From: Chloroflexota bacterium
GTDB taxonomy: Bacteria > Chloroflexota > UBA11872 > VXOZ01
NCBI GenBank assembly: GCA_026710945.1
Contig: JAPOQA010000070.1
Span: forward strand, 1 to 64,000
Reading direction: 5' to 3'
DNA: 64,000 nucleotides
Shown: positions 37,283 through 39,582 of the stretch, piece by piece
Position numbering within the stretch: the stretch's first letter is position 1
Layout of the letters: every line of letters begins with the position of its first letter
Made by a program: the position numbers and the translations under genes
The notes under the pieces: generated by a model
Database searches by the model: none
Told to the model about the DNA's origin: nothing
What the model saw: only the letters and a program-made list of their open reading frames with translations

Positions 37283-37942
37283 TTGGATGCGGAGACCGCT
37301 CTGCGCGTGGCAGTGCTCATTTCGGGACGAGGCAGTAACTTACAAGCGCTCATTGATGCGATCGATGAAGGTCGCCTTGACGCCGAGATTGTCACAGTCA
37401 TCTGCAATCACCGAAACGCGCCGGGCATGCAAAAGGCTCACGCTGCCGGCATCGCCGCGCATGTCATTCTGCGGCGTGACTATGCTTCCCGCGAAGCACA
37501 GCACGAGGCAATGTTGGCATGTGCGCAGCAGCATGGAGCGGAGCTAATCGTGCTCGGCGGCTTTGACCGAGTTCTATCAACCGCGTGGATGGGGGCCTAT
37601 CACAATCGGATCATCAACATTCATCCATCGCTCTTGCCAGCCTTTGCGGGAGGCATGAATCCGCAGCCGCAACAGGATGCCCTGGAGGCCGGGGTTAAGA
37701 TTGCCGGATGTACGGTGCATATTGCCACAGATGAGGTGGACGCCGGCCCAATCATTGCTCAAGCTGCGGTGCCCGTGCTTGCGGACGATACCGTAGAAAC
37801 CCTCGCAATCCGCATCTTGGCACAGGAACATCGACTGCTGCCTCAAGTCGTAAGCTGGTTTGCCGAGGATAGAGTGCACGTCGAAGGAAATTGCGTGAGA
37901 ATTGCCGGGGTGATACCGTCCCGCTGGTGGAGCGACGCCTAA
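37283..37942 (+). CDS. purN: phosphoribosylglycinamide formyltransferase PurN
   Basis: 219 residues. PurN transfers the formyl group from 10-formyl-tetrahydrofolate to glycinamide ribonucleotide. Substrate loop: VAVLISGRGSNLQALID. Catalytic Asn/His are in RIINIHPSLLPAF and the catalytic Asp is in ATDEVDAGPIIAQ. Compared with Bacillus PurN there is a slightly longer loop after LLPAF (AGGMNPQPQQDA). The start is TTG 37283 with only a distant GAAGGG; a GTG a few codons in (37309) is a weaker option. It overlaps the FchA-like gene at its stop (TAATG, 37940-37944). Confidence 0.93.
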   Translation: MDAETALRVAVLISGRGSNLQALIDAIDEGRLDAEIVTVICNHRNAPGMQKAHAAGIAAHVILRRDYASREAQHEAMLACAQQHGAELIVLGGFDRVLSTAWMGAYHNRIINIHPSLLPAFAGGMNPQPQQDALEAGVKIAGCTVHIATDEVDAGPIIAQAAVPVLADDTVETLAIRILAQEHRLLPQVVSWFAEDRVHVEGNCVRIAGVIPSRWWSDA

Positions 37943-38583
37943 TGAGCGGCACTAATGAGAGTCCGGGCGCGGTGGTTACCAATCAAAGCATCCATGCATA
38001 TCTGGAGGCGCTCTCTGCGCGGGAGCCGACGCCCGGTGGAGGCAGTGTGGCGGCATTGGTAGGCGCGCTTGGCGCGGGTCTGGCTGCCATGGTGGCCAAT
38101 TTCACTCGGGGCAGAAAAAAGTATGCGGCGGTCGCTCCCGAGGTGGAAGAGCGGCTCGCCCAATTGAGCCAATCCTTGCGCGCGCTCGAGGAATTGGTAC
38201 AGGAAGATATCGAGGCCTACGGGGTAGTTGGAGCGGGATTCGCGATGCCGCGCGGCTCCGATGAAGAGCAAGCAGCGCGGTCCGTGCATATCCAGCAGGC
38301 ATCGATTCAGGCTACGGAAGTACTCTTTGCCATCGCTGACGGGTGCGTACAGGTGAGCGATCATGCCTTGTGGCTAGCGAAGCATGGGAATAGCAATCTA
38401 CTTGCGGACGCCGTAATGGCGGTCCTCCTATCGGAGGCGGCACTGCAAGGGACGGTTGTCACAATTCGCTCAAGCCTCGGCTTTATCAAGGACGATACGG
38501 TGGTTGCTGCGATGGGAGAGCGGTTGGTCTCCTACGACAAGATGACGGAGGCGCGGGAAGAGGCACTGTCGTGCGCCCAGTAG
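37942..38583 (+). CDS. fchA: cyclodeaminase/cyclohydrolase family protein (FchA/FTCD-C type)
   Basis: 213 residues, the size of the all-helical formiminotetrahydrofolate cyclodeaminase domain and of FchA, the methenyl-tetrahydrofolate cyclohydrolase of acetogens. The signature is near the N-terminus: REPTPGGGSVAALVGALGAG, and the later GNSNLLADAVMAVLLSE is the second folate-site block. It begins inside the purN stop (TAATG), so it is coupled to PurN, a 10-formyl-THF consumer. No formiminotransferase or histidine-degradation genes are near, which favours the cyclohydrolase role over cyclodeamination. The next gene, folD, has lost its own cyclohydrolase residues. The precise activity is an inference from context. 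Confidence 0.85.
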   Translation: MSGTNESPGAVVTNQSIHAYLEALSAREPTPGGGSVAALVGALGAGLAAMVANFTRGRKKYAAVAPEVEERLAQLSQSLRALEELVQEDIEAYGVVGAGFAMPRGSDEEQAARSVHIQQASIQATEVLFAIADGCVQVSDHALWLAKHGNSNLLADAVMAVLLSEAALQGTVVTIRSSLGFIKDDTVVAAMGERLVSYDKMTEAREEALSCAQ

Positions 38584-38715
38584 CGTAGCGTTGGCGGGAA
38601 TTCGCCGAGAGATAGAGACGATTGGACCAAAGGAATTGTGACTGGGCCGCAAGCTGTGAGTCCAACGAGGCCAAGAGCGAGAATTTCGGAGAGATTGAAG
38701 AGGGGACGGAGCGAA

Positions 38716-39582
38716 ATGGCACTAGTGCTTGACGGTCGTCGCATCGCCCGTACTTTGAGTTGGAGACACCGAGACGAGCTTGCAGATATTCAAAGACGCT
38801 TGGGACATCCTCTGACGCTGGCGGTTGTGCGCGCAGGTGATGACAAGGCTTCGGCGAGCTACATTCGCCAAATTGAAAAGCTCTGTCAGCGTGTGGGTAT
38901 GGAGTTTCAAGAGCACGTGCTTTCTTCGACCGACCGCGAGCAATTCATTGGTCGTATATGCAGCCTGAACGTCGATCCGCGTGTAACCGGCATCATGCTT
39001 AGCTGGCCTTTGCCGGAGGACTGGGACCAAGAGTTAGTCGCCATGACCTTGGACCCCCGCAAAGATGTCGATGGTTTGCATCCCTTGAATGCCGGACGCG
39101 TGTTTTTGGGTGGTCAATTCCTGGGTATGGAGGCGTTCGTGCCGAATACGCCTGCGAGTGTAATATACTTGCTGCGACATTACGAGATTCCCTTGCGCGG
39201 CAAACATGCCGTGCTCATAGGCCGCAGCAACGTGGTGGGACGGCCTTTGGCAGCACTACTCATTGCCCATGACGCCACCGTAACCGTGACGCACAGCCGC
39301 ACGGCCGATCTTGCCGGTCACACCAGGCAGGCCGACATCCTCCTTGTGGCGATGGGAAGACCCAACTTTGTCTCGCCCGACATGGTGAAACCGGGGGCGG
39401 TCGTGGTGGATGTTGGCATCAACGTAACTCCCGACGGCCTCGCCGGAGATGTTCAATACGACGCTGTGAGTGAAGTGGCAAGCGCGATTACACCGGTACC
39501 CGGCGGCGTTGGCTCCGTGACGAACGCGATGCTCATCGCGAATACGATACGGGCCGCCCGCTTGCAGTCCACTTTGGCCTGA
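38716..39582 (+). CDS. folD: FolD-type methylenetetrahydrofolate dehydrogenase lacking cyclohydrolase residues
   Basis: 288 residues, the normal FolD length. The NADP site (GRSNVVGRPLAALL), KDVDGLHPLN, VDVGIN and ITPVPGGVGSVTNAML are intact. Against E. coli FolD, the lysine four residues after the conserved Tyr is replaced: SASYIRQIEK (Y49, I53) versus IYVASKRK (K54). The glutamine of VQLPLP is also gone, replaced by S96 in LSWPLP. The Lys-Gln pair is needed for the cyclohydrolase step, so this protein is probably a dehydrogenase only, with the upstream FchA-like protein supplying the missing activity. I chose ATG 38716, after a GGAG about six bases upstream. Confidence 0.9.
   Translation: MALVLDGRRIARTLSWRHRDELADIQRRLGHPLTLAVVRAGDDKASASYIRQIEKLCQRVGMEFQEHVLSSTDREQFIGRICSLNVDPRVTGIMLSWPLPEDWDQELVAMTLDPRKDVDGLHPLNAGRVFLGGQFLGMEAFVPNTPASVIYLLRHYEIPLRGKHAVLIGRSNVVGRPLAALLIAHDATVTVTHSRTADLAGHTRQADILLVAMGRPNFVSPDMVKPGAVVVDVGINVTPDGLAGDVQYDAVSEVASAITPVPGGVGSVTNAMLIANTIRAARLQSTLA

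Follow-up and report, generated by a model that had tools for sequence, protein, structure and literature searches.

A FolD without the cyclohydrolase lysine encoded beside a stand-alone FchA-like protein: a probable division of the methylene-THF dehydrogenase/cyclohydrolase reaction in Chloroflexota

In the genome segment analysed here (the window, 64,000 nucleotides of a Chloroflexota bacterium), folD encodes a protein with isoleucine at the position of Lys54 of E. coli FolD, and its gene adjoins that of a stand-alone protein of the FTCD_C family. Judged by sequence comparison, FolD and the FchA-like protein very likely share between them the two steps that a single bifunctional FolD carries out in E. 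coli, the former probably being a dehydrogenase only and the latter its cyclohydrolase. The pair is a clear new example of an arrangement known from gut clostridia, and this arrangement runs through most of the Chloroflexota. The relevant features of the window are the following.

37283 to 37942, plus strand: purN, glycinamide ribonucleotide formyltransferase, a user of 10-formyl-THF (open reading frame; named by the sequence-only reading and from its pur-cluster context)
37942 to 38583, plus strand: fchA, predicted stand-alone methenyl-THF cyclohydrolase of the FTCD_C family, 213 residues (Pfam, NCBIfam, solved structure and tree)
38716 to 39582, plus strand: folD, predicted methylene-THF dehydrogenase without the cyclohydrolase lysine, 288 residues (Pfam domains and residue alignment)
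38872 to 38874, plus strand: Ile53 codon (ATT), aligned with E. coli Lys54 (alignment; codon computed from the start at 38716)
39001 to 39003, plus strand: Ser96 codon (AGC), aligned with E. coli Gln98 (alignment; codon computed from the start at 38716)

These genes belong to a plus-strand series composed of purL, purF, purM, purN, the FTCD_C-family gene, folD and eno, in which pur and eno genes are named from their sequences without a search. The last A of the purN stop codon (TAA, 37940–37942) is the first base of the fchA ATG; this TAATG coupling of purN to the FchA-like gene, pointed out in the sequence-only reading, was confirmed by reading the sequence. A spacing of 132 bases follows between fchA and folD, the start codon of the latter being the ATG at 38716.

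The window FolD carries both Pfam domains of the family above their cut-offs, THF_DHG_CYH with an E-value of 5.9e-25 (88.2 bits, cut-off 32.8) and THF_DHG_CYH_C with 2.9e-61 (205.9 bits, cut-off 27), and it matches solved FolD structures with E-values down to 1.2e-66. Its top NCBIfam matches are all "bifunctional" models, each scoring below its own cut-off. In the alignment with FolD of E. coli K-12 (NC_000913), to which it is 38% identical, the Y50-xxx-54 helix is free of gaps. Tyr50 is kept (Y49 in the window), as are Asp121 within KDVDG and K56 beside the site, whereas the position of Lys54 is taken by I53 and that of Gln98 by S96. Hence the two residues that mark a bifunctional FolD, namely K54 of the YxxxK motif and Q98, are I and S here, and the residues and coordinates originally reported for folD, including the intact KDVDG, were right. 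The five genomes of the genus all have isoleucine at position 54, with serine at position 98 in four and glycine in one.

The assembly is 98.4% complete. A genome-wide search with both FolD Pfam domains found no second FolD, the remainder being four weak NAD(P)-binding domain matches below the cut-off; another FolD with the Lys/Gln pair, which according to the sequence-only reading would refute a divided reaction, is thus absent. The single FTCD_C protein of the genome is the one encoded next to folD, so that a FolD without K54, present as the sole FolD, is paired with an adjacent FchA gene. The genome furthermore contains one gene for formate-THF ligase (Fhs), and the formiminotransferase domain PF02971 was matched neither as a fusion nor elsewhere in it.

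In the proposed scheme, FolD would oxidise 5,10-methylene-THF to 5,10-methenyl-THF with NAD(P)+ and would be unable to open the methenyl ring, since isoleucine takes the place of the lysine acting as acid/base; FchA would then hydrolyse methenyl-THF to 10-formyl-THF, or catalyse the reverse. We infer in this way the loss of the cyclohydrolase activity of FolD, the activity of FchA and the direction of flux. In the cyclohydrolase step the lysine has been described as general acid/base and the glutamine as the residue positioning it (PMC3338484), and a possible role in proton transfer has also been described (PMC3368264). E. coli FolD and human MTHFD1 and MTHFD2 share fold, family, Tyr50 and Asp121 with the window FolD, but retain both the lysine and the glutamine and do not depend on an FchA. 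An E. coli FolD with the K54S exchange, according to Sah and Varshney (2015), reportedly loses cyclohydrolase and keeps dehydrogenase activity.

A set of 301 Chloroflexota genomes was surveyed, with FolD located in 285 and FTCD_C in 219 of them, and the folD genes of 241 genomes were aligned (275 sequences including E. coli). Residue 54 is lysine in 82 sequences (81 from Chloroflexota and that of E. coli), isoleucine, leucine or valine in 191 and another residue in two. As the five genus genomes agree in Ile54 and such residues predominate in the alignment, the change at Lys54 is not a sequencing slip. In the 161 genomes with only Lys-less FolD, FchA is encoded adjacent to folD in 131, elsewhere in 22 and not at all in eight, four of which belong to the very divergent family f43 and three of which are drafts of 87–89% completeness. 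Among the 80 genomes with a Lys54 FolD, FchA adjoins folD in none; 49 lack FTCD_C, 19 have it within a long frame typical of formiminotransferase fusions, and the remaining 12 match the FTCD_C profile elsewhere, with any FTCD_C type included. The co-occurrence for which the sequence-only reading asked a count is nearly exclusive (131 of 161 against 0 of 80), but these are counts of genomes that are not independent trials, the FolD tree showing only three switches between Lys and non-Lys in the Chloroflexota set and four in a wider set. The phylum accordingly holds two main FolD lineages, and co-occurrence within it was dropped as a statistical test because of the small number of independent pairs.

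Contrary to the original suggestion that Lys and Gln form a joint signature, the two types are distinguished by position 54 alone. Gln98 is retained in most Lys-less Chloroflexota FolDs, and its loss was consequently rejected as a general marker. Besides position 54, by which the groups are defined, the differences between them, among the positions of interest, are greatest at R234, V268, F123 and M266, R234 being part of the reported substrate site (PMC6443876). This suggests that the FolD pocket was remodelled along with the change of Lys54, a pattern to which shared ancestry alone could also give rise.

Several unusual FolDs were observed in the same survey. A second FolD, likewise without Lys54 and mostly with leucine at Gln98, is present at loci L179, L096, L094 and L133 and in relatives (families f19, f34, f37 and f12); these second copies form one clade and are not located beside FchA. 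Tandem folD pairs, in which one copy has Lys54 and the other Ile54, are found at positions 511–2370 of L064 (genome G106) and 2511–4328 of L221 (G050), both in small genomes without FchA, where the two copies may divide the labour between them. The FolD-like protein of family f43 (L153, L205, L206 and L207, from genomes G127, G135, G253 and G143) has Phe at Tyr50, Leu at Lys54 and Val at Gln98, and is extended at its C-terminus by about 150 residues including a DPAGGAAAAAITGALAAAL stretch similar to the beginning of FchA. A FolD-FchA fusion, suggested by eye, was unsupported (hmm E-values of 1.2 or above; hhalign probability 11.5%). Finally, the Chloroflexota genome G150, which comprises two contigs and is 99% complete, has FTCD_C in a frame of 520 residues and no FolD match at all.

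Outside the phylum, a scan of named genomes with the FchA profile yielded 80 loci. In about 20 genomes of Bacillota, Coriobacteriia and Spirochaetota with fchA just upstream of folD, among them Blautia, Robinsoniella, Raoultibacter, Treponema and others, residue 54 is alanine and once valine, and position 98 is Phe, Leu or Met in these loci of Clostridia, Coriobacteriia and Spirochaetota; the FolD of a Clostridium MAG has Val54 and Phe98. The FolD encoded just after fchA is nearly always the sole FolD of the genome. Lys54 and Gln98 are the usual residues in genomes with histidine-type FTCD_C, and Methylorubrum and Methylocystis combine FchA with MtdA and have no FolD. Counterexamples exist in both directions. 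Four Peptococcaceae-type genomes (loci L347, L356, L305 and L367, of Desulfosporosinus, Peptococcaceae and relatives) encode a FolD with Lys54 and Glu98 just upstream of an FchA-like gene, from which it follows that the presence of FchA does not force the loss of the lysine. Conversely, Eisenbacteria, two further MAGs and a Cloacimonadota MAG have a Lys-less FolD with only histidine-type FTCD_C.

The closest known system is that of Clostridium perfringens, a member of a different phylum, which is said to resemble the window in having a FolD annotated as "bifunctional" and a separate FchA. Aluri et al. (2016, Microbiology 162:145) are said to have found that this FolD is a dehydrogenase only, that FchA supplies the cyclohydrolase and that E. 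coli FolD can be replaced only by the two together. To our knowledge, no coupling of this pair to purN has been described. In Blautia hansenii and another Blautia, a sole Lys-less FolD is encoded directly after fchA as in the window, but with Ala54 and Phe or Leu98 instead of Ile and Ser. The NADP-dependent methylene-THF dehydrogenase of Peptostreptococcus productus, i.e. Blautia producta, has been reported to be monofunctional (PMC6443876), the comparison with the sequences above being one by genus and not with the B. producta sequence. In Methylobacterium and its relatives a dehydrogenase and FchA are likewise separate neighbours, the dehydrogenase being MtdA and not FolD. A literature search found no account of a FolD/FchA split in Chloroflexota, which is not proof that none exists. 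The proposal that the reaction is divided over two proteins is well supported by comparison, namely by the missing second FolD, the near-exclusive co-occurrence in Chloroflexota, the pairing in Bacillota and the reportedly monofunctional enzyme from the genus Blautia, the activities themselves being predicted.

The further claim that the pair is dedicated to purine synthesis is weak. The gene purN precedes fchA in five of five genomes of the genus but in none of the 126 other fchA-folD pairs of Chloroflexota; fchA-folD is hence the conserved unit and the purine coupling a local one, for which reason the split is supported and the dedication is not. Owing to formate-THF ligase, moreover, the pair is not the sole route to 10-formyl-THF. 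Since it is encoded with purine genes in this genus, PurN and PurH are probably one outlet, and the pair is better seen as a general link between methylene- and 10-formyl-THF. Such a link could also run mainly in the reductive direction, with Fhs producing 10-formyl-THF from formate, FchA and FolD reducing it to methylene-THF, from which serine, thymidylate and methionine would be supplied, and an incidental location among purine genes. This is a serious possibility, albeit on the doubtful side. It agrees with the Fhs encoded in the genome, with the restriction of the purN coupling to the genus and with several Bacillota loci that combine fhs with fchA-folD, as is the case in relatives of acetogens that oxidise acetate (PMC3584212), but the overlap of fchA with purN inside the pur cluster of the genus argues against it, and the direction of flux is not readable from sequence. 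Its probability overlaps with that of the divided reaction, because it would alter only what the split is used for.

A FolD that is still bifunctional, with another residue or an ordered water molecule in place of Lys54 and FchA as a redundant helper, appears improbable. In its favour, K56 beside the site is kept, and Lys-less FolDs do occur where no clear FchA is encoded (Eisenbacteria, Cloacimonadota and G284); a simulation of human MTHFD2, too, did not identify the catalytic base and left the role of the lysine unproved (PMC9173628). However, FchA is kept beside folD in most Lys-less Chloroflexota families and never beside a Lys54 FolD of this phylum, further positions of the substrate site have changed along with Lys54, and a Blautia species enzyme is reported to be monofunctional in a genus with the Lys-less type.

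FchA, the predicted cyclohydrolase, is a stand-alone protein with one domain, matched by Pfam FTCD_C with an E-value of 2.4e-49. Its sole NCBIfam match is the FchA model (1.4e-43), for which it scores 148.8 bits, below the cut-off of 275; the protein is therefore said to work like FchA and to belong to FTCD_C, and is not called an NCBIfam equivalog, and the FchA model may be narrow. The best structural match is the solved methenyl-THF cyclohydrolase 7vg4 (1.8e-31), ahead of 1o5h and of the FTCD protein 1tt9, and the folds of both window proteins are fixed by relatives with solved structures. In a tree of 109 FTCD_C proteins, many branches of which are weak, the window FchA lies among the Chloroflexota genes adjacent to folD, and genes next to formiminotransferase or hutI stand apart. 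With respect to the positions conserved across 209 FTCD_C proteins, GGG32-34, D89 and D156 are kept, whereas P128 is replaced by L and N178 by S; both are 97% conserved in the family, and both departures are shared throughout the five genus genomes. A formiminotetrahydrofolate cyclodeaminase acting in the breakdown of histidine or purines, an assignment left room by the two activities covered by FTCD_C, by the NCBIfam score and by these two departures, is very improbable given the cyclohydrolase as best solved relative, the distance from histidine-type genes on the tree and the position between purN and folD; as the genome has no formiminotransferase domain, the protein is not a histidine cyclodeaminase, and a role in histidine degradation was rejected.

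The Lys-less FolD and FchA may represent a single folate module of two proteins and of ancient date, which most Chloroflexota classes, Clostridia, Coriobacteriia and some Spirochaetota would have inherited, or exchanged among one another, as a whole. This view is put forward tentatively, as one with a chance somewhat short of even. A single origin of the Lys-less FolDs of Chloroflexota and Bacillota is neither rejected nor shown (p-AU 0.496). On the module view, the annotation "bifunctional FolD" would be attached to hundreds of proteins that are dehydrogenases only, recognisable from residue 54.

The principle of a FolD/FchA split is already known from Clostridium and Blautia. If the reading given here is right, the annotation "bifunctional FolD" would be mistaken for the majority of FolDs in this survey of Chloroflexota, and residue 54 would tell which genomes need FchA to obtain 10-formyl-THF from serine. 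FchA would be predicted to be essential in these genomes unless Fhs supplies 10-formyl-THF, and metabolic models of this abundant and mostly uncultured phylum would be affected.
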